Source: Cymbomonas tetramitiformis (lineage: Eukaryota; Chlorophyta; Pyramimonadophyceae; Pyramimonadales; Pyramimonadaceae). From it: a stretch of 64,000 nt of DNA. The stretch covers positions 32,691-96,690 of the forward strand of contig LGRX02035299.1 of assembly GCA_001247695.2 (NCBI GenBank). Direction: 5' to 3'. The number at the start of each line of letters is the position of its first letter. Positions within the stretch are counted from its first letter, which is position 1. The notes under the pieces were generated by a model that was not told the DNA's origin, did not search any database, and saw only the letters and a list, made by a program, of their open reading frames with translations. Of the stretch, positions 12,723-61,459 are shown piece after piece. The translations under genes and the position numbers were made by a program.

Positions 12723-14657
12723 TTAGTGATCCGTGCCGTCTTCCAGCTCTTTGATCACAGCGTTCATTTTTTCCTTGGAAACCCAGAAATCTTGGTTTTT
12801 GCGGTACGGTTTATTGAACACCTTCAAAAAGAGCCTAGAAATCCTCTCCACGGAGCCCCGGAAGCCTGCACAGCCATCCCCGACCACCTTGCACACACAA
12901 CTTTGGACAACGCCATGCTTGTACGAGGTGCGCTCGCGCAGATTTCCCGAAAGTAGCGTCCGACGAGGTAGCGACAACATCTGAATCATGCATCCGAGTG
13001 ATCCAGCACTGCGCCCCACACCCAGGTACCGCAGTTTGACTGCGCAAGTGGTTTGCTGGCACTGGCGCAGTGGTTGGAGCTGGGCGAAGGGAGGTTGGCA
13101 AACCTTGAGCTGCCCATTCAGTGTCCTTCAGCTCTCGCAGCATTACTTGGCTGGGCGGGCTCCATGGACCAACTCCGCGGTCGGTGTTCGCCCTTACCCG
13201 TATGTGCAGCTCCGTTTCCTACACACCGGAGCCGCTTCCCCATCCCCGTTCATATGGCCTACACTGGCCACACGGGTTGCTGGATGACTGCAAGGCCGCT
13301 CCACACTCCTCTGCGACAGGCCTGCGCCCCTGTGGCAGGCCCCTTGGTGCAGCGCCCGGGAGATGCGCATGCATGCAGTAGCCGTGCGGGCCGGACTGCG
13401 GGCATGGGTGAACGGAGACCGCGGCGAGAGAGGCTGCGGCGAGGCCATGCTAGGCGGAGGTCTGAGGTGGGACAAGGATAGAGTGGAGTCACCTGATAAA
13501 GCTCGCGAAGGCTCGTCTTGGTGATGAGAAACACCTCCTCCATCCCTTCCTCCTGCAGTGAACACACGCACAGCTCAGTAGCCACACAGGATCCTGCAGA
13601 TACCGCATACCCAGTCCGAGGCCCGGGTGGGACATCTGCACATGCTATGCGCTCTGGTGGAGGCCTGGGGAGCGAGGAGAGTGGCCGGGCGCCTCAACCT
13701 GCAGGAGGCGAATCCTCGGTGGATCATCAAGCAGGGCACGCAGGTCCACCGAGTTGGTGTACTGCCCATAGTTGAAGTCCACATCGAAGCCATGCACCTG
13801 TGCTGCGCCCTCAGGACGGCCCGTTAGAGCGGCCCTCGGAGGCTTGGGGACTGCCCCCGAGCACATTAGCGGGATGCGACGATCAGAAGCGGAGCGGAAG
13901 GCACAGGGGGAGGAGTGAGGCGATGATGGGGATGAATTGGGACAGGGGAAAGGGGGGGCAGGAGGAGGAGGAGGAGGAGGAGGAGGACCTGAGTTCCATG
14001 CAACGCTGCTGGGAAGTGCCAGCACACTCTCACCGCGGTGCCTCCCTCCAGCTCCACCTTATGCACAGACTTGAGGGATACCTCTATGTCTACGGGGGCC
14101 TGCCCACGACCAAACCCCTCCCTTTCATTGCTCACATCTCATTGCTCATATTTCATGCAGAGTTGCCGCATCATCTGATGCCCGCTGCCGCCCCTTCCTC
14201 CGCCCACCTCCGCTCGCCTCCTGTCCGCCTGCAGTCTCGACATGTGCAGCCGGGAGCAGCCGGAAGGGATTCCAGGCATATCGGTCGCCCCACAGTGATG
14301 AATCCACTTCTCACACCCAATCACAGGCTCTGAAATTCTCACGCCCAATCACAGGCTCTGAAGCGTCGTCCCCCCGATTACCACGTTCGAGGCTCCCCCC
14401 TGATTGCAGGGTCGCAAGCTTGCCCCGGTCACAGGCACCTCGGAGGCACCAGGAGGGCCCCCCCCTGCAGGGCGCCCAGCCCCCCTAAGAAGGTGCGCGT
14501 AGTGGCAAGCAGTCACCTCAGAGAAGAGCTGCCGGCGCGCGAGCCTGACTTCGGCCGGGGCTGACACGGTCCTGGACAGCCGCCGCCCGGCCATCTTCGC
14601 CCTCTCGCCCGCGCCCGGCAACACCTCCGCAGCGGCGTGCGCAGCAGCCTGCGCGGC
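12723..14657 (-). CDS. giant gene, exons 36-40: unrecognised C-terminal tail
   Basis: Exon 36 (14517-14657) is AAQAAAHAAAEVLPG to ARRQLFSE, helical, perhaps a reduced HSP70 lid. Exon 37 (13989-14099) is APVDIEVSLKSVHKVELEGG to HGTQ. Exon 38 (13699-13797) is VHGFDVDFNYGQYTNSVDLR to IRLLQ. Exon 39 (13493-13552) is EEGMEEVFLITKTSLRELYQ. Exon 40 (12723-12980) is MLSLPRRTLLSGNLRERTSY to ELEDGTDH and TAA. All are phase 0 with GT-AG sites. Exons 37-38 look beta-rich and end the helical character. Exon 40 is basic. No family is recognised. Exons 37-40 could belong to a separate small gene, but no start signal separates them. Confidence 0.55.
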
Positions 14658-17600
14658 CTGTTGCCCCCGCGTTCCCACTCTGTTTCAGCTTAGTTCAGGG
14701 TGTCAAGGGGGGCATGCAATCGGGGCCGAGGAGCACAGATCCAGCTGCGCGGCCGCGATGTGCGAGGGCTCCCCACCTGCTGGCCGGCGACGGTGGCGCG
14801 CCGGAACCACCGCGAGTCGATCTGCTCCGCGCCAGAGATCACGTCCAGCTCCAGCACGCCGTTCTCGTCCAGTTTCCACAGCAGGCGCAACCGCGCCTTA
14901 CTCCGCCCGCCCCCGCTACCTGACTCCGCCACCCTCCACGTCCACATATCCCAGGGACGTGTTGGAGTCCACGTTGCCGGAGAGCCCCTCGAACACCTGG
15001 AGCCGGACCGCAGCAGCAGCGGACGCCGCGCCTCCTGCGACGGGCGCAGCCGAAGCGGCACCCATGGAGCTGCTGTCGCGCCGCGCCGCCGTCTGCTCCC
15101 CCTGAACGGGGGATGACTGGGACCCCTGGTTGGGGGGCGATGGAAGTGTGCCCAGTTCGACCTCCATCTCCGCCTGCGCCTCCCCATCCGCCAGGCTGTC
15201 AGTGCACCGTCATCATCTCCGCTGAAACTCGCACCCCGTCCACCGCCGCGTCCCCGCATGATTGGCGGCGCTGGGCGGCGCCTGAGCGTCCTCGAGCGCC
15301 TCCGCGCAGCCGCCCTCTAACAGCTTGACGAGCCGGGGCCGCGGCGACGAGCCCTCCCTGTGCGAGGAGAAGACCTGCACGCACGCGGTCAGGGGTCTGC
15401 CGCGGGTCTTCATGCGGCCCTCAGGGATGTAGGCTTTTGGCGCCTCTTCCCGAGGTCTGTGGGCGCCTCCGAGGAAGCTTCCGGGGCTTGCCGCATGCTG
15501 CCTGCAGCCTTCAGGCGCCACAAGCGCAGGCGCGCGCGGCACGGGCAAGGGACGCACCGTCGCCGGGATAGCGGTGAAGCGCGGGAACACGTGGCGGAAG
15601 CCCACGGAGGTGCTGGGGAAGTGCGTGGTGTGGAAGCCTGGATGCTCCCCATGGGTCAGCACCGCCAGCCCGACGTCCTGAGGGATGACATCCACGAGCT
15701 CTATCTGCGGCACGCAGTCCGTCTGGCGCTTGGTGTAGCTATCGTTGAGCATTGCCCCGAGGATCGCCGCTCCGCGCGCCACCGCCTCATCTGCGGCCGC
15801 CCGCCACTCCGAGCTTCAGGCGAGGCGCAGGTGGCCAAGCCCGTGTCACGTTGCGCCGGGAGCTCAAAGCCTACATTCCTCCATTCTATGCAGCCAAGAC
15901 GAAGGCGGTGAGATGACTCTCAGTTGTGTACCATCCAAGGCAGCTTCCTGCTGCGGCGTGCCTCGCGTGCGTATGCAACAACTCCTCAGTCGCGGACACG
16001 GCACAGCTTGAGGTTTCCTGACGGAGAGCTCAAGCTTCGCGCAAGTGCGCTGCTGGGGTTCGGACAAGTCAGCGCGACAGAGCGGACAAGGCACAATAAG
16101 CCGCCGCGAGACACATCAATATATGTCATCATGCTGAGAGCGTCGAGCATGTTTGTTGGAAACTCATTTGCAGTTGACTTGAGACTGTGTCATGCGTGCG
16201 GTGCGCCACGTGGGATGACAACTGCCCGCACCGGCATCTAAGGTTTCAAGAGGAGGTGCCCCGAACACAGCGGCCAGGTCCTGCTTAATGCGAGGCATCT
16301 GGGAGCTTCCACCTGGGAACCGCGCATGCCCCCCTTGCGCCTCACTTCGCATTTCCACCCACCTCCCTTCAGGGTCCGCCCCTTCCCTTCACCGCACCCA
16401 AAAGGCCCACAAGGCGCCGCTCCGGCCAAAGCAGTGCTCCCCGCTCTACCGCTGCTCCCACGAATGTGGAGGCTAAGAGCAGGGGACAGCCGACAGAAGA
16501 CGCTCGGAGGAGGGCGGGTGCCCACCGACGAGAAGGACAGCGTTCACATCGCTCGGCTCAAGGTGCGCTTCCTGCGCCGCCCTCGCCCCCCAGCCCGCGC
16601 GGCGTCTCACAGACAAGCTCCCTGCGCGCTCCGAGCAGCGTCCGCTGCGACGGGCGCCACATTCCCATGCCTCCACCTCTGCTTGGAACCCTGCTTGGCC
16701 GCCCGCTCAGTGCACGCCTCGTGCGTGCCTGGCGCGCTGCCACCTGCGCGGGTCCTGGCAGCCGCCCTCGGCGCGTCTACCCTGGATATGCAAAGGAGCG
16801 CTAAGAGAGGAGCGGTCGCAGCAGACGGCGTGCGCGCCCAACAGGTGGACCGCACGATTCGAGAGCGGGTGACAGCGAATACCTGCAGGAGCTCCGCCAC
16901 GAGCTTGACTGTTCGACGGAATAAATGCGCGCACTGAGTGGCCCCCCATCAACCCCCCACCCCAACCTGTCAACGCCCCCTGGAATCTGTTGCCTAGGAA
17001 TGGACGGCGCGGCTGTGGACGGCGCGGCTGAGGAAGCGGGGACTCAGAAGGAAAGCAGCAGCAGCGGCCGTCACCATTTGCTCGAAGGCGTCGCGTGTCA
17101 GCTCGAAGCGCTCCTCCAGGTCCACGGGGTACACACTCACTGAAGTGTGCTCCTGCGCCTAGCCCCCCCAAACGCTCTCACGCAATGGGCACCCTCAACA
17201 TTTGCCGGGCGGGTTGGGGATATGCCCCAAGAGGCTCACGCGCCCCCTCGACAATAGGTTAAAAGGGCTGACCCAAGCTTGTTGAGGCGGAGAGGTAAAA
17301 GGTCAACAGTGAAACAACGGATGGGACAGGATGACAAACGTATGGATCAGGAAAATCGTAATAACGCCCTACAGCCGCCGGCCCCTGAAAGATGCGGACC
17401 CAGCACCTGCTCGGAGAGGGCGTGCTTGGCCCTCTTGGCAGCCTCAAGAAGGTAGGGGGTGGCGTGCGGGGGCAAGCCCTCCTCGCCCCCCTTCCGCTCG
17501 GAGCACCACGCCAGCATCGCACTCAGCACCACCTGCGGGAGCTCCTCCCAAGCGCCGGGCGTCATCCACAGCACAGCGGGGAGTCACGCCAGCTGCTGAC

Positions 17601-20600
17601 GAGAGACGCCCTCGTGCTGGCGCCGTCGCGTGCTTATGCTTGCCTAGCCTCGGGCTGGTCGTGGGGCAACCAAACCCTAATTAAAACCTAATCAAACCCT
17701 AATTAATCCCTCATAAAAGCTTTCACACAACCCTTGAGGTTGAACACTTCCTTGAGGCCGCAATCAGCACCTCTGCCTGAGAATGGTCCGCTAAACCCTT
17801 CAGAGCATCCCGGACGTTCGCCGGGGCCACGAGCACGGGCGGGCCGCGTGCCTCAAACGCACGGGCGGGTAGATCTTCTGAGCAGCATCGAGCACAACCG
17901 ATCCAAATTCTGATTGGGCGCTTTCTTCCACCGCGGCACCCGCCATACACATCGACGGACTTTGCGAGATCGCGACTGCGGGGCGAAGGACAGGCCGGAC
18001 GCGCCGCCTCACCAAAGTCCTGCCCTTGCAGCTGATGGGGCAGGGGGGTGGCTTGGGCAGCCCGCCTGCGCAGGGCTCTGCCCGGTCAGATGAGGGGGTG
18101 GGGGATGTGTCTGACGGCCCACCTGATCGAAGTCCTGCCCACCCAGCTGCCCGTCTCCATTCACAGCTTTGACCTGTATTTCAGCTGGGCAACAAAAGGT
18201 GGACCGCTCGTCAGGGCCATGCTCTCCGCGGCCTCCGACCAGCGCCCCCAGCACAGGGGGGCCTAGGAAAGAACCTCTCCAAAAGCTGAGTGCCCCACAT
18301 TGTGATCTGGGTCCTGGGACGTGGTCGCACTGGCTGGAGGCACCTCGGCAGCCAATCAGCGCGCTGTCACGCATCGCCCGTGGGGCCAAAGCGGAGGGCT
18401 GCGAAATGCGGTGGAGAAGCGGAGAAGCGCGCCGCAGCCGATAGCCTCCGCAGTGCACCGAGTGATCACGCGATCCAAGAATTATAACCGCTAAAATTCT
18501 AAGAATACTGAAAAAAAACTTTTCCCTCGCTCAAATTGACGAAAAACCGCTTTTTTTTCTCCTAAAGAAAGGAGAGCCGTTGCCTCACGTGCGTGCCAGG
18601 CGAGGGGCCGGGCCGGGCACCATGGTGCTGGTCCACGAACACGAGGGTGACATCAGTGGTGCCGCCGCCCATATCGAACACCACAAAGTAGCCGTGAGCA
18701 GCCAGCGCAGAGGAAGGAGCCGCACCGCTGTCCACTGCACAGTGCACCCATCGCCCCCCACCCCCACCCCCTCATCTGAGCTTCCAATCAATGGCGTCTC
18801 AATGACATCAATCTCATCCCGAGGGTGGCACTGTTGATTGCTTCGGAAATATCGCACCGCGGACGCCTGCGATGTGCGGCATGCGGAAGGGCGTCATGGG
18901 AGCTGGTAGAGATGGGGCGGAGTGGGAAACGCGGCGCAGCGCCTTGCGAAGGGGCCGGGGAGATCCCAGGAGCAACCTGCCGGTGCCGGGAGAGCCCGGG
19001 AGCAACCTGCCGGTGCCTGGGAGAGCCCGGGAGCAACCTGCCGGTGCCTGGGAGGCCCGGAGAACCTGGACCTCCGATGCCGTGCCGGGAGAGCCTCCGT
19101 GCCAGGGAGACTGGAGCAACCTGCCGGTGCCGGGAGAGCCGGGAGCAACCTGCCGGTGCCGGGAGAGCCCGAGCAACCTGCCGGTGCCAGGAGACCCTGG
19201 AGCAACCTGCCGGTGCCAGGAGAGCCCAGGAGCAACCTGCCGGTGCCAGTGAGGAGCCTGGGAGCAACCTGCCGTGCCGGAAGAGCCCTGGAGCAACCTG
19301 CCGGTGCCGGGAGAGCCCGGGAGCAACCTGCCGGTGCCGGGGAGAGCCCGGGAGCAACCTGCCGGTGCCGGGAGAGCCCGGGAGCAACCTGCCGGTGATT
19401 CGCGCGCGTCCCGCTGCTGGAGCACACCATACGCCAGCGCCGCAGCGGTGGGCTCGGTGACGAGCTGGATCACCTGCGCCTCCACCCGCGAACAGGCCTC
19501 TCATCCCGGGACCTCCCCCCACTCCCATACCTTGATGGCATCCAACGGCTGAGCCCATACCTTGATGGCATCCAACGGCTGAGCTCACTGTTGAGACCAG
19601 GCAAGGCGGCGCGTTGCGATGGAAATGTTTCGTCCCCATGCATGGCATCGCACCCCCTTGCAAGATGGAAGGGAGGGGAGGGGGCGAGGCGGAACGAAGG
19701 GGAAGTGTCCAAAGAGAGGCTATTTCCGGAAGGGGGAAGGACACGGTGGGGGCAGCGTTGGACCCAGGGGGTGGGGACCCACCTGCAGGTTGGCCATCTG
19801 GGCGGCGTCGAGCGTGGCTTGGCGCTGCGCGTCGGTGAAATGCGCGGGCACGGCGATCACGGCGGACTGGGGCTCGTCGGCGGGCAGCCCGAGCTGCGAT
19901 GAGGCGAGCTCTGTCGCGTGGTCCAGCACAAACGCGGCCGCCTCCTCCGCGGTGACCCGCTCGGAGCGGATGCTGATGACGCAGCGGTCATCCTCCGCCT
20001 CCAGCACCTTGAATGGCCACGCGGCGGCCATCGTGGCGTGTGCCTGGAAGGCCGAGTAGGGCAGCCCCATGATGCGCTTGGTGTCAAACAGCCCCCCCTG
20101 AGGGTCGTCACGCATCAGCACCGCCGCCTCGTGCCCGACAGCCTCCACGCGCCCGTCACGGGAGATGTGCACCACGCTCGGGATGGTGCTCTCGTGGAAC
20201 CGGCTCTGGATCATGACGACGCGCTCGTGCAGCCCTGGGGCGGCGCGGTCAGCGTCATACACCGCTACGCAGGTGCGCGTCGTGCCCAGGTCGATGCCGA
20301 GGATATGCCGGCTGGCGCCTGCCTGTGAGGCACCGCCCACCTCCTCCCGGGGCGGTGTCCGCTCCCCAACCTCCCCGGAGTCGATCTCTCGCTGTCCCGC
20401 CGGCGCCTCCGCCGGCACGCCCGCGCCTGACGCAACGATTGGCTGTGACGAGTGCGGCGCCCCCTCCAGCGCGCCAGCGGCGGCGCTCATCTCTGCACGC
20501 AACTGCGCGATCAGCGCTTCCGCCGCCGCGAGCGCCGCGTCCTTGCGCGCCACCTCATCATCCAGGACCTCACCGGATGGGTCGGCCGCGCCCGCTGCGG

Positions 20601-50600: not shown

Positions 50601-53600
50601 CATCACCACCCTTAGCTGCTCCATCGCCGCCTCCTGTGTAATCACCCGACGTTGAATCTCCTCTGCCTGGCTCCCTATACTCTTCTCTGCTGCCTCCAGC
50701 TGGGCCTGCAGCTCCGCCTGCCGACTCTCACTTACGCGCAACACATTTGCAGCAGATGAGAGCTCCGACTGCATCTCACTAACCTGCCGGCCGTTCTCCG
50801 AGTCAATAGTACTTATAACTTCGATAAGTTCCGCCCGCAGCGCCGCCGTCTCCTCCATGTGACCTGCGCGCTCCGAGGTCATCTCGCTCACCAGCCGCTG
50901 CCGGTGCTCCGCCTCCCGCTGCAGGTCCGCCACCAGCCGCTCCTTGCGCTCCGCCTCCACCGTCAGATCTTCGATCAGCCGCTCCTTGCGCGCCACCTCT
51001 GCGGCCATCTCCGCCCTTAGCTGCTCCGTCGCCGCCTCCTGCCCATCTGCGTGCTGTTGCATAGCCATGCCTTGTTTCAATATACCCGCCTCCGCTGCCT
51101 GCAGCTGGGCCTCCAGCTCCGCCTGCCGCATCTCACTCGACTGAACCGCCGCCTGCGCCGTGTCCAGCCTCGCCTGCAGGTCCGCCTCCCGCGCCTCGTT
51201 CGCTTGCCCTGCACCGCCCATCGTTGCTGACAGCTCCGCCCGCAGCGCCGCCGCCTCCTCCATGTGACCCGTGCGCTCTGCGGTCATATCAGTCATCAGC
51301 TGCTGCCGGTGCTCCGCCTCCCGCTGCAGGTCCGCCACCAGCCGCTCCTCAACAGCAATCTCCACCTTCAGCTGCTCCTTTGCCTTCTTCTCCTCCTCCT
51401 TGAGCTCCCTCATCCTCGCCGCCTGCCTCTCCACTTCCGAGCTCCTGTTCTCCAGAGCCGCTTCGAGTTCCACGTGGCGCGCCTCGCTGGCCGCCAGCTC
51501 ACCCAGTGCGGCTGCCAGCGCCTGCTGCGACTGCGCCTCCTGGACCTGGGAGGACTGCACCTCGCTCATCAGACGCTGCTGGTGCTCCGCCTCCCGCTGC
51601 AGGTTCGCCACCAGCCGCTCCTTGCGCTCCGCCTCCACCGTCAAATCTTCAATCAGCCGCTCCTTGTGCGCCACCTCTGCGGCCATCTCCGCCCTCAGCC
51701 GCTCCTTCGCCGCTTCCTGCATGTCCACGTGGCGCCGCGTCTCCGCTACCTGGGTCACCATGCATTTCTGTGCTGCTTCCAGCTGGGCCTGCAGCTCCGC
51801 CTGCCGCTGCTCGCCGAGTTCCATCGCCTTTTGCACCGATTGCAGGCGCGACTGCAGCTCCGACACGTGCGCCTCATTCGTGTCGTCCGTGCGGGCCGCC
51901 ACCAGCTCTGCACGAAGCGTTGCCGCGTCTTCCAGGAGCGCCTCTCGTTCGGCAGTCACCTCGCCCACCATCAGCTGCCGGTACTCCGACTCCTGCCGCA
52001 GATCCGCCAGCAACATATCCTTGCGCTCCGATTCCGCAACCGATGCTGACATGGCAGTCTCTAATTGGCGAGCATGGTGTTCTGCAGACCGCATGCGCTC
52101 GACATCTTCCACCGCGTTGCTCTCGCGTTCCAGCAGTTGTGCCTCTAGGGCCACGAGCAAGCAACTCGATGTTTCCAGTTGAGTGCGAAGGGCATCGTGC
52201 TCAGCCTCGTTCGCCTGCGCCCCGGCTTCGGCAGATGCCAGCCTCGCCTGCAGCTCCGCCACCTCCCTCTCCCTGCTCAACTCCATGTCGCTCACCGTCG
52301 CTGACAGCTCCGCCCGCAGCGCCGCCGCCTCCTCCAGGTGACCTGTACGCTCCGCGGTCATATCAGTCATCAGCTGCTGCCGGTGCTCCGACTCCCGCTG
52401 CAGGTCCGCCACCAGCCGCTCCTTGCGCTCCGCCTCCGCCGTCAGATCCTCGATCAGCCGCTCCTTGCGTGCCACCTCTGCGACCATCACCGCCTGCAGC
52501 TGCTCCTTCGCCGCCTCCTGGCCATCTGCGTGCTGCTGCAGCTCCTCCTCTTGACACTCAATGGTCCACTCTGCTGCAACCAGCTGGGCCTGAAGCTCCG
52601 CCTGCCGCCTCTCACTAGATTGCACCGCATCCTGCGCGGTGTCCAGCTCGGCCTGGAGCTCCGCCTGCCGCCTCTCGCTCGCCAACACTGCGCCATCTGC
52701 TGCGGTTAGTCTCCCCTGCAGCTCCGCCACCTGCGTCTCCCTCTCGTTTTCCTTACTGCTCAGCTTCGCGTCCAGCTCCGCCCGCAGCATACTGGCTCTC
52801 GACACAGCTGCTGTCAGCTCGCTCTCAACCTTCCTTGAGATTGCGTCCTTGTGCTCCGCCTCCGCCGTCAGATCCTTCATCGAGCGGTCAAGGTTCACCA
52901 CGTGCTCCTTCAAGTTCCGCACCACAAGAGCTTCCGCCTCCCCTCGGCCGCGCATCTCCTGCAGCTGCGAGGCCTGGCTGGCTGCCGCACCCTCCGCCGC
53001 CTCCAACCTGGCCTCCAGCTCCGCGGCTCGCTCCCTCCCCGCATACACCTTCCTCTGCGCCTCTGCCACCATCGTCTTCAGCTCCGTCACATGCATGGAC
53101 CGCACGGTGTCGTACTGCTCCAGCGCGTGTGTGTGCCAGCTCTCGCTCGACTGCACTGCATCCTCTGCCAGCGCTAGCTGAGCTTCCAGCATCTCCACCT
53201 GGATGGCACATCCAGGGTGTTACTGAATTAGTCGCAATGCACGAGCTGTGAGAGGACACATCCAGGGTGTTATCAAAATTAGTCGCAATGCACGAGTTGT
53301 GAGAGGACACATTCAGAGTGTTACTAAATGAGTCGCAATGCACGAACTGTGAGGGGAAAAAATCTAGGGTGTTACTACATGAGTCGCAATGCACGAATTG
53401 TGAGAGGACACATCCAGGGTGTTACTAAATTAGTCGCAATGCACGAGTTACAAGTGGAAGGCAAAACATAGGGCGATCCGAAAGAAAGGATGCACGAGCT
53501 GCTGCGAGAGCGCGACTCTACCTGCGCCTCTCTCGCCTGGCCAGCGCTCCCAACGCTGACTTCCAGCTCAGCACGCAGCGTCCCCACCTCCGCCGCGTGC

Positions 53601-56600
53601 GCCGCGTGCTCCGCCTCCACTTGCTCCAGCAACCCCTGTCTCTGCTCCAGTGCCAGCTGGAGCTCCTCCGAGAGCCCCCCTATGTGGCCCTGGGACTCCC
53701 GTAGCTGGCCCTCCAGCGCCTCACGGTGCCCACTGCACATCCCACAGCCCCCCTCCCGCCACCTTCAACACACCCGCCACCGAATCGGGCAACATTTCAC
53801 CCACGTGGCGACGTGCTGAGCCAAGGCAAGCCGCGGGCGACCGCGCGGATCAACAAAGCTGGCCGGGCCTCAGACTCCTCCCGGCATGTGTTCGCTGCCG
53901 GCTCTCCTGCGGCACGTGTTCGATGCCGGCTCTCCTGCGGCACGTGTTCGATGCCGGCTCTCCTGCGGCACGTGTTCGATGCCTCTGGGCACGTGTTCGA
54001 TGCCGTTTCCTGCGGCATCGTAAAAACGATGTAAGTTTCCTAAGGCACGTGTAGCCCGATGTCAGTTTCCTTCTGCGGTAATGGAGCCTGATGCCAAGCT
54101 TGGTGCGGCACGGAGCCTGATAAGCTTCTCTGCGGGCGTTGGTGAAACTGATGTCGGGCCCTCCTGTGGCACTGTTCGATGCTGCTCTCCTGCGGCACGT
54201 GTCTGATGCCGGCTCCTGGCGGCAGCGCCGGTGCTCCATAAGCTTCTGGGCAGATGGTTTATGCTGCCCTCGGTGGGACGGGCTCATAAATGCTGGCTCT
54301 CCTGCGGCACGCAGTCTGATGTGCTGTGGTGTTTCCCCCTGCAAGACGAGCTCCTGATGCCGGCTTCCCGCATCGTGTTCGATGTCGGGCTCTCCCAGCG
54401 GGCAGAAACACCCATGCCTGCCTCTATGGGGCGCTGTGTTCAGATGCCGGCTCTCCTATAAGGCCAGCAGGTTCGATGCCGGGCCTCCTGCGGCACGTGT
54501 TCGATGTCGCTCTCTGCGCACGCTCGATGCCGCCTCCTGCGCATCGGTACTCGATGTCGCTCTCCTGCGCACCCGATGGCTTGTCGGCGGTATCGCAGCC
54601 TGATGCCGGGCTCTCTGCGCACGTGCCTGGGCTGCTTCTTGGCGGTTTGTAGCTTCCTGGCAACGTTTCAGGCCGGCTCTCCTGCACGTTCGATGCCGGG
54701 CTTCTCTGCGCACGTGTTCGATGCCGTCTCTGCGGCGCTGCAGCCCGATGCCGTCTCTTCCTGGCAAGACGTGTTCAGGCGAGCCCCGGCAATGCAGTTC
54801 GATGCCGCTCTCCGCGCAGACGGTACTGAGGCCGCTCCCGCGGCATCGCAGTCGATGCCGCTTCCTGCGGCACGTAGCCTGATGCAAGCCGGCACGCCTG
54901 CGCTGCTCTTCCGCGGCATCGCAGCCTGATGCCGGGGTTCTCCTGCGGCACGTGTTCGGAGGCCGGCCTCCTGCGGCACGTGTTCGATGCAAGCTCTCCT
55001 GCGGCGCGTGTTCGATGCCGGCTCTCCTGCGGCACGTGTTCGATGCCGGCTCTCCTGCGGCACGTGTTCGATGCCGGCTCTCCTGCGGCAGAGGACTCGG
55101 GTGCTCGCAAAACATGTGTCCTACTCGCACCACAGGGACTGCGCCCAAACTGCCAGGGTGGCATGTGGCATCTTCACAAAGGCCCATGTCCGGTGCCGCG
55201 GCGGCTAGGCGGCTGCTGAGTTGACTGGCGTGACTGGCGTGACGCGCGTGACTCACTCTGCAGCTTGCAGTTTCCCCGTGATGCCCACCAGCTCTTGCTC
55301 AAGTCGCGCCGCGTTTTCCATCAGCACCGCCTGCTCGGCCTGCCCCTCCAGTGTGTCGCTACGGAGCTGCTCTAGCTCTGCCTCTCGCCACTTCGTCTCC
55401 GCCTCCATGCCCTCGATCAGCTGCTCCTTGCAGTACCCCTCCACCTCGATCTCCTCGATCAGCTTCGCCTTGATCGCCTGCCCCGCCTCGAGCGCCCGCA
55501 TGCGCTTCGCCTGGCTCCTCATCACCCTCTCCGACCTCTCCACCTGCGCTGCCAGCGCTGCGCGCCGTTCGTCGCTTCGCCGCACCGCATCCTGCGCCCC
55601 TGCGAGCCTATCCCTCGCCGCACGCTCCCGGCTCGCACAATCCCTCCGCATCGCCTGCATCGCCTGCAACATCCGCCGAAGGTCTCGCTCAGCACACCAC
55701 CCTTCCCCCGCCCCCTGACGAAGCGAAATCTGTTTCATTTGGGGGTAGCCACGCGCTCTCCCGCTTGACAACAGTTTCACCTCGCCCGATGCGGTAATCG
55801 CTGCTGAGAACGCGCCCCTCGAGCTGTCCTCGTTCGTTGCGCCACGTGGCAATGCACGGTGCCAGCAAACCGCAGGAACCCATCGCTGCCCCGTTCAGAC
55901 CGCATCGTGCGCCCCAGTGGCCTTTCTAAGCAAAAGCCCACCATACGCTGCCCGCCTCGGCGCCAAGGCCACACACAGCTACACGATGATACACGTGGAC
56001 CATCGATACAGATACAGGTGGACCATCGATCCAGATACACGTGGACCATCGATCCAGATACGCATGGGCCATCGATCCAGATACACGTGGGCCATCGATC
56101 CAGGTACACGTGGACCAGAGGGGATACGAAGAGCGGGCAGGGCGCTGCAGGGCGTCACTCGCCACTAATCCAGCAGTGCCTCCGGGAGTGCCTCCGGGAG
56201 TGCCTCTGGGAGTGCCTCAGGGAGTGCTGGCCGGTTTCACGTCACCTGCTGCCTCTCAGCTTCACTCGCTTGCAGCTCCTGAATATGCGCCGCCTGTCCT
56301 CGGAGAGTTTCCTCCGACTGCATCAGCTGCTCGCGCAGGGCCTGCTGGCCGGCCTCGCCAGCGCGCGCCATCCGCTCCCCCAGCACCTGAATGTTCGAGA
56401 TGCCTTTCTTTCCGGCTTCCGCCGTCACGAAGGCCTCCGTCAGCTTCGCCTGGACCATCCAAAGCAGCGGTAGGCAAATCATGAGCGCTTGGTGCCACGG
56501 GAGATCCCATGGGATATGGTGACCACACCCATGGTGCGCCGACGGGTGCAGTCCCCACACTGGTGAGAAGGTGAATCAGACAGGCTGGCAGCCCTCGGCC

Positions 56601-59600
56601 GACTCTCCTCTCCCCAAAGCCGAGCAAGTATACCACTCCCCGCCGATGCCGAGTGCGGCCAATCACCACGCGGACAATCACAGCAGCCAAAGCGCAGCCA
56701 GCCACCGGAGTGGGCAGGCAAAATCTAGGAGGTGGCCGGCAGCCAGTCACCGGCACACAAATGGCGTAAAACAAGAGCAATCCAGACCCACAAGCTGCAA
56801 TCGAGAAAACTGCGGGGGCACGTGCGGGGGTCCAGGAAGCACTCCGGCGGCACGCGGTGCGCCCGCCAGTGCGCCATGAAACTGCAACGCAGCCCCGCCG
56901 GAGATAAGGGAGGGCCGCTTCCCACCTGCAAACCTTGAAGCTTGTCCCCCACGTCACCGCTGAGGCCCTCCAGAATACTTTGCAGAGCCTTCGCGCCTGC
57001 CACCGCCGTCGAGTGCTCCGCGCCAGCGTCCGCCTCCTTCAGCTTCCGCGGCTCCCTCTCTTGCACCATGTTCGGCTGCTTGTTCTCTCGCTCCAGCCGC
57101 TGATCGGACGGCCCCGCGCCGGCATCCACCGCATCGCCGTGCTTCGGGGAGCGTGGGGAGAGGGGCCCAGGCGCGCCCCCCCCGGGCCCGCTCGTACGCG
57201 CCGTCCGCACCCGCCTGGGGGAGAGGGGGGGGGCGGGAGCTCCTTCGCCCACGGGGACCTGCTGGCTGAGTGCAGCGGTCACGTCCGTGCCCCCCCTCAC
57301 GCCCCCCTCGCCTCCTCCGCTCACCTTCAGAATCCGTGCGAGCTCATTGGTCAGCCGGTGCGCTTCGCCGCGGGCCGTCACCAGCTCCTGCTCCGTGCTC
57401 TCCACCAGCACCTCCGCCGCCGCCGCCTGTGCTGACATCTCAGCCACACGACTCTCCACCTCCCGCAACGTGTCGCGCGGTGCCAAGGCCGACACCCGCA
57501 GCGCCTCCAGCTCGCGGCGGTGCGCCTCCGCACCCGCCTCTGCGCCGGCCATCTCCCGACGCAGGTTCTCAGCCCCCTCCCAGGCCGAGTACACCTCGTG
57601 CTCCGCCCTCGCCAGCGCAGCCGCCACTTCTTCGCTCTGTCGGCGCCTCTTGTCGTCATCGTCCACGTGTGCCCCGCCTGCAGGAGCCAGCTGGCGCGCC
57701 TCGCTTCGGAGCTCCCCAAGCTGCGCTGTCGCCGCGTCCATCTCCACCGCCACGTGGCACCTCAGCCTCTCCCCAAGTCGCGCCGCCCCCGCTTCCTCTG
57801 TCTCCATCTCCGCCTGCATCGCCGTGCTCACAGCCATCTCCCGCTGCAGCTCCCCCTCTACACGCGACTGCGTGTCCTCCACGCCCTGCAGTTCCTGACT
57901 CACCTGAGCTGCGGCTTCGCGAGCCGCCTCTAGTGCTTCCCCGAGAGCATGCATCCGCTGCAGCACAGCCCCGACCTCCGCCTCCACCTCCTCGCTGGAA
58001 CGCCCCCCTGGTGACTGCGTCGCCTCAGGCCCGGCAGCCTGCGGATCCACACCACCACTAGCGGGCGCGCCGCCCCTGAGCTGCACGTTCTGCGTCGCGC
58101 TCGCCGCCTCCCAAGGACCGTCCGCCCCGCCCGCCCGCCCTCTCACCTCGAGCAGGCGCTTCGCGGTAGCCCCTGGCATCCTCCCGTGCAACGCCTAATG
58201 CCTCCTTGTACCCCGCCGCCCGCTGCTCCGCCGCCGCCAGGTCCTCGGACCCCCGCTGCAGCTCTGCAGCCACCGCCCCGTGCTCCATCTGCTCCCTCTG
58301 CGACCGCGACCGCGCCGCCGCCGCCAGCCACCTGCACCCCCCAGAACCCAGCGGAGATCACCCTCGTTCAGCAGCCAAGTCGTCAAGGAGCCAGATCGTG
58401 ACACCGTCAGTTATTTCAGGGCTTGTTACTTCAGGACTCGAACAGAGCGAGCCGGGTAGGGGATGCTCCAGGGGCATGCGCGGGTAGAGAGAGAGAGGAG
58501 AGCGCATCACCTGAGCCCCGCAGAGCGCTGCTTGGAGAGACGCGCCCGCATCGGCGTGGCCACAGCGGCCACCTTCGCGGCGCGCTGCTCCATCTCCTGC
58601 TCCACCTGCTCCGCCAGTTGCTCCTCCAGCCACGCCGCCTTTGCGGAGGAGTCCACCGACTGCAGGCCCGCCGCGAGCTCCGTCATCGGCTCGCTCGACA
58701 ACCCGCACGAGGCCTCGGCCAAACGCGCCAGGAGCGCCTCCAACTGCGGCTCCCCTGCGCCGCCCACACTCCCGGGACTTCCGTGCAGCTCGCCCTCCTT
58801 CAGCGGAGCGGAGAAGCCGCCCGGGGGCGTGAACAGCACGGAGGGCCTGGCGATGTCCGGGGAGCAGGGCTCCCTACCACCGCCCTGCTCCTCGAGCCGC
58901 AGCGCCACCTGCTTCGCCTCTGCCAGCGCTGCGCGCCGCCGCCCTAGCTGCCGAGCGAGCCGCTCACGTGGCGTGGCTTCACCAGCCCCTGCCGGGGTCG
59001 CTCCAGGCGCCGGGCTCTGCATCAGCTGCCGGAGCCGCTCCACTTGGACCTCCCTCCCTGCAATAACCCGGGGCCCCACCACCAAGGGAGGCCTGGTGGC
59101 AGCGGCGGCGGTGTTGAGGACCGGCGTGGCTGCCCCCTCATCCTCCGGTTCAAGCAGCGCCCCAGCGTGCCGCAGCTCCAGCATCCGCACCTCCAGGCGC
59201 GCGGCCTGCTCCGCTTCACGCTGTGCTGACGCCGCCTGCACTGCCTCGAGCTCACAATCCGCCGCCGCCTGCCATCCAAATATCCCCCGCCGCAAGGCAC
59301 CCCGTCAGCAGCGCACGCTAGTCAGCGTGTCCCCATCCCGGTGGTTGTCTTCCCCACACCCTTCAGGCTCACACCTCCAGCGCACCCAGTAGCATCGCTC
59401 AGCCGCGCCACGGGGACGCCTCCCCTGGTCAAAATCTCGACTTCTACTTTTCGCCAGATCCACCTCCAATACCGCCGCCACCGTCAGATTCTCCACCAGT
59501 GGACCTCAACATTTCCCGTTCTTCTCCGGCATTCCGCCGATGCATCTTGTTAGGACTGTCACTATTCGGCGATTCTGGTGGGTGCTCCAAAATGCGGCTC

Positions 59601-61459
59601 TCGAGTTGGTGTTCGCCCACTCACTGCAGTCCCAAGCGCGTTGCCTTACCGAAAGCAATAAGCCGCTCAAGTACACCGCTTCGACACTAACCACTGGATG
59701 AGAAGTTTGTCATCGCCGTACGGTTCAGCTACGTCATCCGGCACTCCCTAAATATGGCGACGGCAAACTGGGCAGGCGCGCCGCTCAAGGATCGGCTGTG
59801 AAATGGCGAAATGTGTTGAGATTACCGACCGACGATAGTGAGTCCGGCATAAACCATAAACCTATGCAACGGCGGACCTCGATGGTGCAGCGAGGACCGG
59901 CCTAACCTAGAACGTGGCGGCCACCGCAACCTGAGTCACATGCGCGTCAAGGCTCGCGGGCCTCGCGGAGGGGCGTAGGGCTCCGCGGAAGGCAAGGCGG
60001 TGCTGGCGGAGAGAGGCGCCTCACCTTGGCCTCGAGCAGCGCCTCCGCGAGTTTCTGCGCCTGCCTCTGCTCCGCCACGTCGGCGCGCTCCTCCGCGGCC
60101 TGCAGCGCCGCGCTCCGGCTCTCTAGAGCCTGCAGCAGCTCCTCCGCCTGCAAGTTCATCGCCTCCCCCTCCTCCTCGAGCTCCTTCACAAGTGACCCCA
60201 GCGCTGCCGCCCGGGTCAGCGCTCGTGCCTGCTGTTTCTTCGCGTCCGCCTCGCTCGCCACCGCCACCTGGCATTCGCGCTCCGCCGCCGCCGCGGTTTC
60301 CTCTAGTCTGCGCTGAGCGGCCACCAGCTCCTCCTCGTAGCGCGCCTCCGTCCGCCTCAGCGCCTCCTCCAGGTTCTCCGCCATTTGCTCCCCACCCGCC
60401 GGCCCTTCCCGCTCCGCTGCCACTGCCGCCTCGGAGCTCAGCAGCCGCTCCTTCATCGCGCTCACCACCGCGTGCTCCTCTTCCCGCTCCGCCGCCGCTG
60501 ACACCTCCAGGCTCCGCACCTGCTCCACCAGCAAAGCCTCCCGCGCCTCCACTACCTCCAGGGAGCCGCAGTGCTCTGCCACCGCGCTCTCCGTGGACGC
60601 CAGACTCGCGTGCATCTCCTCGATCCTCGCCAAGTCGCCGCGCCGTGCCGCTGTGATCTCCGGCTCACCGCCGGCCTGGCCTCTGCCACCCTCGGGTGTC
60701 TTCTGCGCTCCAGGCTCCGCCTCCTTGCTGGCCAGCTCCGCCTCCGATAAAAGCAGCCGGAACTGCAGCTCGCCGAGCTGCGCCTGCCCTTCCTTGGTGG
60801 TGCGCGCCACCGTCGCCAGCTCCGCCACGAGCTGCTCACTCCGTAGTTCCGCCTGCTCCAAGGCGTAGGCCGCCTGCAGGTCATGCATCTCCAGCTCTCG
60901 CGCCTGCTGGGCGATCATGCGGCTCAGCTTGGTCTCCGACGCCTGCTCTAGGGTGAGCACCTCCTTGGCATGGGACTCCGCCGTCGCCTCCGCCGCCGAA
61001 AGCTCAGCCTTCAGCTCCCTTGCCTGCGCCTGCACACGGCCGCCCCCTCTCCTCCGCGTCCTATTCAGTCTCTGCACTCGCATCAAAAGTGCTCCAGGCT
61101 TTGAGAGGGGACCCGGGGAGGCACCTTCGAGCGAGGAAGGAGACCCAGGGAGGCACCTTTGCGTCGGCCTCTCGGGCCTCCGAGCGGAGCACATCCTGCG
61201 TCAGCACGAGCATGTCCACCTTGGCAGTGGCCATCTGCCGCATGTGAGCCTCGTGCGCGGTGTCCTCGGACTCCGTGGCAGCCCTCACTCCCTGCTCCAA
61301 CTGCCGCACCCGCTCGGCCATGCACTCCACTTCACGGCCCGAGCGCTCCGCCTCCTGCGCCTTCGCCCGCAGCTTGCCCCGCAGCAGAGCCACATTGTGC
61401 TCCACGCTCTCGATGTTTCTAGTCCGCAACTCCTGCATCTTCTCGGAGCTTTCCACACT
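12723..61459 (-). CDS. giant coiled-coil protein with C-terminal HSP70 domain, 40 exons, 5' partial
   Basis: One minus-strand gene of about 48.7 kb. Forty exons can be chained on GT-AG sites. Reading phase agrees at every junction from exon 1 to exon 32, and most coiled-coil exons are phase 0 at both ends. Coding total from the first visible exon is about 33.9 kb, or 11,300 residues: roughly 10,470 of Ala/Glu/Gln/Arg-rich coiled coil, an HSP70 ATPase domain (from about 20307 down to 15.7 kb), a diverged substrate-binding part and an unrecognised tail ending in TAA at 12723. The rod may scaffold or span a structure while the HSP70 end does ATP-driven chaperoning or acts as a switch. That is inference. 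HSP70 families are normally about 640 residues without such a rod. Exon 1 lacks a convincing ATG, so more 5' sequence is missing. A gene-fusion artefact is unlikely because exon 23 encodes both coiled coil and HSP70 start in one frame. Confidence 0.85.
14777..15790 (-). CDS. giant gene, exons 32-35: end of HSP70 ATPase and substrate-binding part
   Basis: Exon 32 (15558-15790) starts in phase 1 with DEAVARGAAILGAMLND (connect-2), then QIELVDVIPQDVGLAVL at the linker/strand-1 position where HSP70 has DLLLLDVTPLSLG, and FPRFTAIPAT. Exon 33 (about 15330-15407) has VFSSHREGSSPRPRL. Exon 34 (14940-15173) ends VRLQVFEGLSGNVDSNTSLG. Exon 35 (14777-14896) has LLWKLDENGVLELDVISGAE, matching the DIDANGILNVSA strand pair. 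The order is that of the HSP70 beta-sandwich, but identity is low and the linker is altered. Exon 33 ends on a weak donor. The 34/35 intron would be only 43 nt, and a frameshift is an alternative. The 441-bp intron 15791-16231 is empty. Confidence 0.65.
16232..17532 (-). CDS. giant gene, exons 27-31: HSP70 ATPase, second half
   Basis: Exon 27 (17407-17532) is VVLSAMLAWCSERKGG to LLEAAKRAKHALSEQ, the AAERAKxxLS helix. Exon 28 (17075-17152) is EHTSVSVYPVDLEERFELTR then DAFEQM. Exon 29 (16883-16933) is CAHLFRRTVKLVAELLQ. Exon 30 (16526-16571) is EAHLEPSDVNAVLLVG. Exon 31 (16232-16312) is GSSQMPRIKQDLAAVFG to ETLDA. The joined order 'F(E)xx(C)AxLFRxT', 'LVGGS..(I/M)P.(I/V)' follows canonical HSP70 with no gap. 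Phases 0,0,0,1,1 are consistent. All five sit on classic GT-AG sites. Confidence 0.9.
17533..18122 (-). other. intron 26, with AACCCTAAT-like words
   Basis: 590 bp between two HSP70 exons. Around 17668-17712 are three degenerate AAACCCTAATTAA words. An open minus frame at 17723-18015 does not match HSP70 and is not needed by the chain. Confidence 0.6.
18123..19473 (-). CDS. giant gene, exons 24-26: HSP70 ATPase, connect-1 and phosphate-2
   Basis: Exon 24 (19428-19473) encodes VIQLVTEPTAAALAY, the connect-1 segment with its conserved Glu. Its donor TATG/GTGTGC was preferred to later ones because it keeps normal HSP70 spacing. Exon 25 (18589-18734) ends in YFVVFDMGGGTTDVTLVFVD, the phosphate-2 loop with its conserved Asp and GGGT. 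Exon 26 (18123-18173) is VKAVNGDGQLGGQDFDQ, matching the GDxxLGGxDFD block. Phases 1, 0, 0 agree. The residues after phosphate-2 (HHGARPGPSPGTH) are longer than usual. Confidence 0.88.
18955..19405. repeat. 30-bp minisatellite inside the HSP70-coding part (intron 24)
   Basis: About 15 copies of a unit with GGGAGAGCCCGGGAGCAACC then TGCCGGTGCC, some with small deletions. Thirty bp is a multiple of three, so open frames run through it in several registers. The HSP70 alignment, however, places it in the intron between exons 24 and 25. Confidence 0.9.
19783..22218 (-). CDS. giant gene, exon 23: coiled coil joined to the start of HSP70
   Basis: 812 codons in one frame. Residues 1-600 are coiled coil with a Pro/Thr spacer (NPAPPPSTTPTAEIGTT) and basic patches LERALRRGKARLQQGK and DRALRRGRARLEQ. 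From about residue 638 (DNA position about 20307) an HSP70 nucleotide-binding domain begins: ILGIDLGTTRTCVAVY (phosphate-1), then ESTIPSVVHI, FDTKRIMGLPY with the catalytic Lys, AAAWPFKV, VTAEEAAAFVL and AVIAVPAHFTDAQRQAT. It ends AAQMANLQ at a CTGCAG/GTGGGT donor. This exon is the direct proof that the rod and the chaperone domain are one protein. Confidence 0.93.
22764..23598 (-). CDS. giant gene, exon 22
   Basis: Starts in phase 2 (completing an Arg codon, then NKKLREDLAGSAG), matching exon 21, and ends VEELQ in phase 0. A Ser/Pro-rich start (MQRPSPSAAPDVSD) precedes about 150 residues of coiled coil. It is followed by a low-helix stretch (GTSSEQSTPRFYDAVATSIS) and a short helix at the end. 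Confidence 0.8.
23889..27472 (-). CDS. giant gene, exon 21
   Basis: 3,584 bp, phase 0 start (VRAAELARIVSVTEL) and phase 2 end. The apparent stop TGA just after the exon lies in the GTGATA donor. Mostly coiled coil. The middle (about 26.1-25.2 kb) carries six-heptad units like those in exon 18 (ASQMAALLQGSEAEQAAL). The end carries a poly-Ala run and the basic patch EKALKKTKSRLQKTA. Confidence 0.85.
27495..27662. repeat. 44-bp minisatellite in intron 20
   Basis: Nearly four copies of a unit containing GACGGGGTGTAGCGTATCAG then CCGGGCGGGAGCGCGGCGAG. It abuts the exon 21 acceptor. AAACCCTAAAC, a telomere-like word, follows at 27665. Confidence 0.9.
27898..29053 (-). CDS. giant gene, exons 19-20
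   Basis: Exon 19 (28658 to about 29053, 132 codons, start tentative because three in-phase AGs lie within 10 bp) runs from EGLPLRRALRGEF to DMERIKQ. It has a Pro/Thr-rich break (STHPPGTRAQPPAPQD) in the middle. Exon 20 (27898-28281, 128 codons) runs RRVAASEAEAAESEE to REELEVIQ, highly charged coiled coil. Both are phase 0. Confidence 0.78.
29155..29430. repeat. 40-bp minisatellite in intron 18
   Basis: About seven copies of a unit with GCGGCCATCATCAACTTTAC then AGCTGCCGGATCATCATCTC. The first copies are 40 bp apart and later ones are slightly shortened. Confidence 0.9.
29461..34071 (-). CDS. giant gene, exon 18: 42-residue coiled-coil repeats
   Basis: 1,537 codons, phase 0 at both ends (acceptor GCCGCAG/GCGGAG, donor GCACAG/GTGCGG). 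The first half is ordinary coiled coil. From about 31.95 kb to 29.9 kb a 42-residue unit, exactly six heptads, recurs about a dozen times: AAEMAALLRGSEAEQAALRQ, then ELEEAG and QASELESADA. Related units occur in exon 21. The frame is uninterrupted. A 927-codon Pro-rich open frame on the opposite strand is its shadow. Confidence 0.87.
34150..34530. repeat. 27-bp minisatellite in intron 17
   Basis: About 14 copies of a unit containing CATCCAGCGGCAGGCAAGGC then AATGGTT. The 5' copies are near-perfect and the 3' copies more diverged (ATCCAACGGCAGCC). It lies between exons 17 and 18. Confidence 0.9.
34656..35945 (-). CDS. giant gene, exon 17
   Basis: 430 codons, phase 0 at both ends, ALRRDAAEKQAVAEL to LQQGVARQ with a good GTGAGG donor. 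Continuous coiled coil, very rich in Ala and Glu. Near its start is a basic patch, AARSKLKKVSAGRK, similar in character to basic patches in exons 21 and 23. The antisense strand is also open across most of this exon because of codon bias. Confidence 0.82.
36152..40458 (-). CDS. giant gene, exons 10-16
   Basis: Seven phase-0 exons of coiled coil. Exon 10 is 40105-40458 (VETRGRMYSAAMEKM to EQITQLQ). Exon 11 is 39364-39855 (HEENGHRLAAAEAEV to AELLVEIR). Exon 12 is 38917-39075 (MAANVEHLATSERG to LESQAVQ). Exon 13 is 38287-38550 (ELQQQMQELGEES to SQISAALE, start tentative). Exon 14 is 37767-37988 (EQLASVQEAAWHG to QAAVGE). Exon 15 is 36796-37194 (ERMAALERDARC to LLQAR). Exon 16 is 36152-36442 (LEQLQEEEALAVA to VEAAHAQ). 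Every length is a multiple of three, so each could be skipped or shuffled without a frameshift. The introns around 37195-37766 and 39856-40104 hold nothing I recognise. Confidence 0.8.
36495..36795. repeat. about 35-bp minisatellite in intron 15
   Basis: About nine copies of a unit with TGCTTCCGCCAAATACATGC then GTCACATGCACTTTC, several with deletions. It begins directly at the donor of exon 15 and reaches close to exon 16. Open frames through it are artefacts. Confidence 0.9.
39168..39236. repeat. 21-bp minisatellite in intron 11
   Basis: Three tandem copies of TCCCCAATATCCGACTCCCAT-like units. Confidence 0.85.
40459..41132 (-). other. intron 9 of the giant gene, nothing recognised
   Basis: 674 bp with GT-AG ends and no tandem repeat or frame of note. 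Confidence 0.6.
41133..53198 (-). CDS. giant gene, exon 9: single 12,066-bp exon of tandem coiled-coil repeats
   Basis: 4,022 codons with no stop, phase 0 at both ends (acceptor ATCCAG/GTGGAG, donor GAGAAG/GTGCGG). After about 190 residues of ordinary coiled coil, a module recurs about 20 times from about 52.5 kb to 42.9 kb. Its core is RKERLIEDLTAEAERKERLV, followed by ADLQREAEHRQRLMT and RTGHMEEAAALRAEL, then QSSERRQAELQAQLEAAE. Full units are 135 residues. A short form of 117 lacks an 18-residue block (ELSATVSGMEE and after). A diverged gap occurs around 46.2-46.9 kb. From about 42.9 to 42.1 kb the rod is replaced by a flexible spacer with LMQEV(R/Q)TASG repeated three times. Coiled coil resumes to the end. 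The high DNA identity among copies points to recent duplication or homogenisation. Confidence 0.88.
42100..42880 (-). CDS. non-helical spacer inside exon 9
   Basis: About 250 residues rich in Pro, Gly, His and Ser (for example KPRERAPAHSVKTSN, MHTPSGGGTLSEDGEHP). They include three near-identical copies of PLMQEVRTASG. It is the largest break in heptad pattern in this exon and could be a hinge or binding segment. No domain is recognised. Confidence 0.6.
53200..53456. repeat. about 51-bp minisatellite in intron 8
   Basis: Five imperfect tandem copies of a unit with AGTCGCAATGCACGAGTTGT, then GAGAGGACACATCCAGGGTG. It starts right beside the acceptor of exon 9. Confidence 0.9.
53522..56449 (-). 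CDS. giant gene, exons 6-8
   Basis: Exon 6 (56246-56449, 68 codons, AKLTEAFVTAEAG to SEAERQQ) is phase 0 at both ends. Exon 7 (55257-55663, start alternative 55654) runs AMRRDCASRERAARD to GKLQAAE with a GTGAGT donor in phase 2. Exon 8 (53522-53732) starts in phase 2 (GHREALEGQLRESQ) and ends AGQAREAQ in phase 0. All are coiled coil. The introns between them hold three separate minisatellites, listed separately. Confidence 0.78.
53880..55100. repeat. 28-bp minisatellite array filling intron 7
   Basis: Units read GTTCGATGCCGGCTCTCCT then GCGGCACGT. Clean tandem copies lie at about 53890-54010 and 54940-55090, and between them the array is scrambled with deletions and variants. It occupies most of the 1.5-kb intron between exons 7 and 8. 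Open frames across it are repeat artefacts. There are no unique spacers, so it is not CRISPR-like. Confidence 0.9.
55983..56115. repeat. about 23-bp minisatellite in intron 6
   Basis: About six copies of a unit containing ACACGTGGACCATCGATCC followed by AGAT. Each contains CACGTG and ATCGAT palindromes. It lies in the intron between exons 6 and 7 of the giant gene. Confidence 0.85.
56170..56226. repeat. 12-bp minisatellite in intron 6
   Basis: About four to five tandem copies of TGCCTCCGGGAG-type units, with one variant base. Confidence 0.75.
56926..58007 (-). CDS. giant gene, exon 5
   Basis: 361 codons, starting in phase 1 (GGRSSEEVEAEVGAVLQ) after a 139-bp intron whose ends were chosen because they are the only AG that fits exon 4's phase. 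Long coiled coil, interrupted by an acidic patch (VDDDDKRRRQ) and, near the end, a Pro/Ser-rich flexible segment (APPLSPRRVRTARTSGPG) with several SP motifs. Ends GDKLQGLQ. The following 476-bp intron (56450-56925) holds nothing recognisable. Confidence 0.75.
58147..59268 (-). CDS. giant gene, exons 3-4
   Basis: Exon 3 (58511-59268) starts AAADCELEAVQAAS and ends in phase 2 at a GGGCTCAG/GTGATG donor. It mixes coiled coil with a Pro/Gly-rich loop (about residues 130-190 of the exon, PSVLFTPPGGFSAPLKEG), one of the few breaks in the rod. Exon 4 (58147-58331) starts in phase 2 (RSRSQREQMEHG) and ends in phase 1 after GYREAPAR. The phase 2 to phase 2 match supports the join. Confidence 0.72.
59269..60024 (-). 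other. intron 2 of the giant gene, no repeat seen
   Basis: 756 bp between exons 2 and 3 without tandem repeats or a frame that fits the coiled-coil composition. It has a more even base composition than the exons. Confidence 0.6.
60025..61459 (-). CDS. giant gene, exons 1-2: N-terminal coiled coil
   Basis: Exon 1 (61157-61459, acceptor ambiguous by 2 bp) begins near SVESSEKMQELRTRN and ends EADAK. Exon 2 (60025-61029) runs AQARELKAELSAAEA to EALLEAK, 335 codons. Both are continuous heptad-type sequence rich in A, E, Q and R, joined in phase 0. The 127-bp intron between them includes a partial duplication (AGGCACCTTCGAGCGAGGAA type). No ATG with good context precedes exon 1 in frame, so this is not the true N-terminus. 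Confidence 0.75.

Follow-up and report, generated by a model that had tools for sequence, protein, structure and literature searches.

The window, by which we mean the whole stretch of 64,000 nucleotides analysed here, comes from Cymbomonas tetramitiformis, a green alga that eats bacteria according to the available part of PMC10675990. One gene seems to occupy its minus strand from 61459 to 12835, and the predicted product is a coiled-coil rod followed by an HSP70 and then by a fibronectin-III (fn3)-like C-terminus. The features are given below from 5' to 3'; exons 22 and 23 keep the numbers that they had in an earlier interpretation of the letters alone (the sequence-only reading).

61157..61459, minus strand: most 5' exon of the model and the first that is confidently coiled coil (heptad z 5.0)
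60025..61029, minus strand: coiled-coil exon of 335 codons (heptad z 3.4)
59268-59191, 58947-58878, 58754-58573, 58297-58212 and 57994-57325, minus strand: five shorter exons (coding model, chain)
55257..57099, minus strand: three exons, 57099-56926, 56449-56246 and 55663-55257 (coding model, in-frame chain)
53588..53732, minus strand: short exon with an uncertain join to the next (coding model, in-frame chain)
41133..53198, minus strand: 12-kb exon, 4022 residues (open frame, repeats; heptad z 33.8 over its 5' portion)
40458-40105, 39855-39364, 39000-38917, 38550-38287, 37988-37767, 37194-36817 and 36442-36152, minus strand: seven phase-0 exons (coding model)
34656..35945, minus strand: coiled-coil exon of 430 codons (heptad z 9.3)
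29461..34071, minus strand: coiled-coil exon of 1537 codons (heptad z 16.9, repeats)
27898..28990, minus strand: three exons, 28990-28841, 28768-28658 and 28281-27898 (coding model, chain)
23889..27472, minus strand: coiled-coil exon of 1194 codons (heptad z 11.6, repeats)
22764..23598, minus strand: exon 22 (coding score drop at donor CAG/GTGCGA)
19783..22218, minus strand: exon 23, starting with ATG; residues 1-634 are coiled coil and linker, then the HSP70 starts (Pfam, PDB, codon score)
15558..19473, minus strand: nine HSP70 exons, 19473-19389, 18734-18589, 18173-18123, 17532-17407, 17152-17075, 16933-16883, 16571-16526, 16312-16232 and 15790-15558
14777..15419, minus strand: three exons, 15419-15375, 14996-14925 and 14896-14777, resembling a diverged substrate-binding beta domain
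14517..14657, minus strand: Ala-rich exon of 47 residues at the expected HSP70 lid site
12835..14099, minus strand: four exons, 14099-13989, 13797-13699, 13552-13493 and 13218-12835 (stop), fn3-like domain and tail

The whole protein is predicted to be about 10,930 residues long, with ~10,114 residues before the HSP70 and 642 residues encoded 3' of exon 23; the giant size proposed in the sequence-only reading was retained, while its figure of ~11,300 residues was lowered. Because the window ends where the contig ends, the N-terminus of the protein may be missing. In steps of 2 kb, the GC content lay at 0.63-0.75 from 14 to 62 kb and at 0.48-0.56 outside, and the largest minus-strand open frames were 4081, 1577, 1196 and 839 residues. 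We placed the stop at 12835-12837 (TAG), with an AATAAA at 12815-12810 on the same strand; this TAG was preferred to the 3' end at 12723 given by both automatic models and by the sequence-only reading. In the flank, none of four ORFs had a Pfam domain at E 0.01. Stretches 1-161 and 2905-3168 recur at 88-90% identity in the 10 kb immediately preceding the window, and the 3' flank is therefore repetitive.

The exons were predicted with a coding model run with costs that we set ourselves, and again with the minisatellites masked. The first automatic model fragmented exon 23, skipped the HSP70 start and placed false exons in minisatellites. The masked rerun still split exon 23 and the 12-kb exon, and both were kept as unbroken open frames. 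The 3' part of the model consists of HSP70 and fn3 exons picked by hand in place of the automatic prediction.

The predicted coiled-coil rod

The 27 exons from 61459 to 19783 make up a chain of 30,876 nt, or 10,292 residues, in which frame 0 contains no stop and the other two frames contain 322 and 219. Phase 0 accounts for 22 of its 26 introns, phase 1 for one and phase 2 for three. A phase-keeping chain upstream of exon 23 had been proposed from the letters alone, and the absence of stops bears it out, with 26 exons instead of 22 in that position. The coding model gave 3749 nats on the minus strand versus 68 nats on the opposite strand of the same region. The exon boundaries within 57325..59268 are uncertain, since the two automatic models disagree there.

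Heptad periodicity was tested on the exons of the first automatic model. Of 21 upstream exons examined, 11 reached a z of 3 or more and six stayed under 1; five exons gave values of 33.8, 16.9, 11.6, 9.3 and 9.3. The 4081-residue frame is composed mostly of A, E, L, R and Q and contains long repeats. In the 12-kb exon a core repeat recurs at intervals of 96-135 aa and more, with at least 19 copies passing the threshold that we applied, and a 42-residue repeat occurs ten times in the 4.6-kb exon and four times in the 3.6-kb exon. Among five of the 19 core-repeat copies, the median dN was 0.074 and the median dS 0.290. The tandem arrays in exons have periods divisible by three (33, 126, 252, 288, 342, 351 and 405 nt), and those in introns have mixed periods, for example 23, 28, 31, 35, 40 and 44, also 27, 30 and 51 nt; intron minisatellites with periods of 23, 27, 28, 35 and 51 nt lie at 53207-56117, 34150-34546 and 36497-36791.

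When the rod was compared with Pfam in ten pieces, there was no match at E 0.001. A FANCI_S4 match in the 12-kb exon (23.8 bits, cut-off 25.3) was put down to coil composition. If it were entirely extended coil, the rod would measure at most ~1.5 micrometres.

The HSP70 part, its C-terminal neighbour and a paralogue

The minus-strand ORF 22239-19720 (839 aa) matched Pfam HSP70 (PF00012) at residues 646-820 with E 7.5e-28, and in the PDB it matched DnaK with E 1e-19. We divided exon 23 into 14 bins of 58 codons and scored them with a codon model trained solely on the 12-kb exon. The exon's own frame was the top-scoring of the three in all 14; the own-frame score was slightly negative in five bins (-0.07 to -0.47), three of them near the linker and the HSP70 start, and the other two frames scored -0.56 to -1.41. 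These data agree with the claim of the sequence-only reading that exon 23 encodes coil and HSP70 in one frame.

Downstream, the nine HSP70 exons supply the remaining nucleotide-binding domain and the beginning of the substrate domain. Exons 23-32 have GT-AG sites, keep phase and yield one continuous nucleotide-binding domain, an agreement in phase that is partly built in because the exons were picked with HSP70 in mind; the paralogue described below is the independent check. The spliced exons 23-32 matched PF00012 with 285.6 bits (E 8.6e-85) over profile positions 1-399 of 599, and the nucleotide-binding domain matched DnaK 1dkg_D with E 3.7e-56 over residues 5-414. The motifs GIDLGTT, KRIMG, EPTAAALAYG, FDMGGGTTD and LLVGGSS are kept; of these, GIDLGTT, EPTAAALAYG, FDMGGGTTD and LLVGGSS align to DnaK, and we take them to be the HSP70 phosphate 1 and 2, connect and adenosine motifs of the ATPase. 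At the position of DnaK R167, both the window copy and the paralogue have Q; R167 is an important contact in J-domain action according to the available part of PMC7289447. The scores for NCBIfam HscA (258 of 620 bits) and DnaK (251.9 of 648 bits) were both far under their cut-offs, so that neither model assigns a subfamily. In the intron after exon 24, a minisatellite at 18954-19397 consists of ~15 copies of a 30-31 nt unit that carries CAGGTTGCT. These are the letters of the exon 24 donor that was chosen, and that donor is therefore ambiguous.

The three exons after the ATPase half resemble a substrate-binding beta domain that has diverged. The Pfam HSP70 match stops at position 399, and one PDB chain, SSB1 9r9o_A, aligned up to residue 536; one exon join in this part is doubtful. 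At 28 nt, the gap from exon 33b (14996-14925) to exon 34 (14896-14777) would be a small intron, and an error in the sequence or a lesion may account for it. The helical lid (SBD-alpha) is absent from the model, in which 47 residues separate the substrate domain from the fn3-like domain. The latter is spread over four phase-0 exons and matched PF00041 with E 8.9e-5 and 23.1 bits (Pfam cut-off 25); its PDB matches were weak, with fn3 receptors on top and a best E of 0.013. In all, 17 exons follow exon 23 (nine of HSP70, then eight more), and 14 of the 17 introns of this hand-made part are phase 0. The sequence-only reading had counted eight HSP70 exons here and had let the protein end in the HSP70 ATPase. 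Both points were corrected, and the C-terminus seems to be fn3-like; that reading had overlooked this domain, the lack of a lid and the altered residue at the J-domain contact.

We searched the alga's own genome (851,713,466 bases in 25,745 contigs) for HSP70 and obtained 50 matches, one of them a close relative on contig C9925. Its HSP70 pieces follow the order of exons 23-29, and their breaks coincide with the exon boundaries that we predicted in the window; they are mostly 66-89% identical to it (48% for one that extends past its exon), and the copy has an additional intron following WPFKV. In the C9925 open frame 19192-20697 (502 residues), the HSP70 starts after 356 residues, and the helix and linker before it align with those of the window over 81-82 residues. 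The upstream part alone gave an alignment score of 149, and the best of 300 shuffles reached 126. Between the two copies, dN was 0.17 and dS 0.93 in the ATPase part (104 codons), and 0.52 and 1.14 in the helix and linker (71 codons). The alignment, together with dN below dS, shows that the stretch before the HSP70 is protein-coding and has been kept in both copies. Because the paralogue keeps helix and linker before its HSP70 in one frame, we regard the coil-HSP70 fusion predicted inside exon 23 as real.

The old paralogue occupies 19192-23844 of its contig, which breaks off within the HSP70 after 23,844 bases. In the 4 kb 5' of its open frame there was no coil-like frame of at least 60 residues, and further 5', at C9925:5441-15107, three open frames of 788, 816 and 932 aa look gag-like by eye. 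The lack of a rod on C9925 counts against the giant rod being a family trait. The 10,000-residue rod was seen at one locus, that of the window.

One gene or two

Rod and HSP70 are likely to be on one mRNA, judging from the splice sites and the coding scores. The coding score falls past the donor in all 25 measurable exons of the 27 (those with at least one codon between donor and next stop), and below zero in 22 of them. At the exon 22 donor, CAG/GTGCGA, it is +0.92 bits per codon before the site and -0.42 after it. A donor in use requires an acceptor; exon 23 is the first coding sequence further on to offer one in phase 0, which makes one gene the better reading. The ~10,000 upstream residues that the sequence-only reading had put into the same polypeptide thus have the support of the splice chain and of the loss of score at donors, with a gene break after exon 22 being possible.

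Such a break would give two neighbours, namely a gene for the giant rod that stops around exon 22 and a coil-HSP70-FN3 gene of 1,454 residues starting from ATG 22218, which we consider unlikely, though it is the most serious of the alternatives. The ATG lies at the start of exon 23, right behind the supposed acceptor, with a stop seven codons upstream, and the C9925 paralogue is a coil-linker-HSP70 with no rod seen on its contig. When gene breaks were forced at 25 introns, at costs of 4.8 to 39.7 nats, the one between exons 22 and 23 cost only 9.5 nats, similar to those inside the HSP70 (4.8, 9.4 and 21.1 nats). Against two genes, the score drop at the good donor of exon 22 resembles that at other donors, so that the exon is seemingly spliced onward, and among the coding sequences that follow, exon 23 is the nearest with a matching phase-0 acceptor. 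We thus consider one gene rather than two to be the probable structure, above an even chance and well below certainty. If there were two, the second would still be a new HSP70 fusion, though a much smaller one.

The short gap of 28 nt after exon 33b, the diverged substrate domain and the Pfam HSP70 match that ends at 399 of 599 would also suit a decaying copy, either a pseudogene or an allele damaged in its 3' part, from which the full protein is not made. This is very improbable given the absence of stops in 10,292 codons and an excess of third-position changes both against the paralogue and among five of the 19 repeat copies. Still more improbable are chance open frames or a misassembly of unrelated pieces: long ORFs are common on both strands at a GC content of 0.63-0.75, and the contig probably stems from a nanopore hybrid assembly (PMC10675990), but the two strands scored 3749 and 68 nats, heptad z reached 33.8, 16.9 and 11.6 in the largest exons, and the helix-linker-HSP70 order recurs on another contig.

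Proposed working and comparison with known systems

On balance we favour one gene for a rod-HSP70-FN3 protein of ~10,900 residues that would serve as a tethered, client-specific HSP70 switch. The earlier proposal of a chaperone ATPase on a giant coil is kept here as far as the fusion at exon 23 is concerned, where a single open frame and the paralogue speak for it; the roles that the sequence-only reading had suggested lay in phagotrophy, flagella or scales and are possible settings for such a protein. The rod of ~10,100 residues, being repeated coiled coil, would anchor or space, perhaps as a dimer. The HSP70 end, with its motifs kept, would hydrolyse ATP in a cycle, and it may grip and then release one particular partner in an ATP-dependent manner; the fn3-like module beyond it could be a docking module. 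Because the lid is absent and the J-domain contact is changed, a role as a general folding chaperone is unlikely. The protein would be a fixed, partner-specific grip-and-release switch and not a roaming general chaperone. HSP70s are usually regarded as soluble machines that seek out their clients; if the proposal is true, the HSP70 ATP cycle would here act as a switch, fixed in place, for mechanical work or docking, in one of the largest predicted proteins and in a deep green-algal lineage where bacteria-eating survives. A bolder version, which we put forward tentatively and at somewhat less than an even chance, is a cytoskeletal giant in which a micrometre rod, an HSP70 switch free of ordinary J-protein control and an adhesion-type tip module together hold, stretch or remodel one specific structure in a phagotrophic alga, the gene having enlarged from a smaller coil-HSP70 precursor, still extant as the paralogue.

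Our protein searches together covered candidates of 496-8022 aa, and among these we did not meet a protein with the predicted rod-HSP70-FN3 architecture. With candidates of 800-2545 aa, 7999 were scored and 2396 reached E <= 0.001; among the 120 matches listed, identities were 26-35% and PF00041 was found in none. With candidates of 2521-8022 aa, none of the 1380 scored reached E <= 0.001, a weak negative, since the ~155 coil and linker residues of the query may draw coil proteins and crowd out HSP70s. The query of the third search was the end of the ATPase half, the substrate domain and fn3 (tail residues 993-1333). It scored 8000 candidates, 35 at E <= 10 and five at E <= 0.001 (best 41 bits), and PF00012 was present in all 35 matches at E <= 10 and PF00041 in none. 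BLASTP placed an HSP70 match in 154 of the 155 proteins named in the first and the tail searches, and in 12 at least 150 residues precede the HSP70. TPR domains are present in the three with the highest share of coil-like residues, and heptad z exceeded 2.5 in none. In the literature searched, no HSP70-rod fusion is described in the titles and the beginnings of the abstracts that were listed.

The ATPase half was 30-35% identical to all others in the rows shown, including five HSP70s of its own genome, and by these pairwise identities it looks like an isolated HSP70 branch. With DnaK, mitochondrial stress-70 and cytosolic HSP70s it shares the full nucleotide-binding domain, the ATPase motifs and ~30-35% identity in the rows seen. 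The window protein differs from them in the giant coil in front, the diverged substrate domain, the lack of a lid, the change of R167 to Q and the fn3-like C-terminus. Three HSP70s with N-terminal TPRs (P0099, P0104 and P0109) have in common with it an HSP70 behind a helical N-terminal region, but this region is ~200-250 residues of TPR in proteins of 826-842 aa in total, for which neither coil rod nor fn3 is listed. In the identity rows, the ATPase halves of P0104 and P0109 are among the most similar to that of the window.

Giants of the titin and obscurin type are scaffolds with a single catalytic domain near the C-terminus and with fn3-type modules adjoining it. Their enzyme is a kinase and their body consists of immunoglobulin and fn3 beads, not of coil; the likeness is one of layout only. 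In the ciliary central apparatus (PDB 7n6g/7sqc), HSP70A is a separate, unfused chain of ordinary length (651 aa), and it is likewise an HSP70 held within a cytoskeletal assembly.
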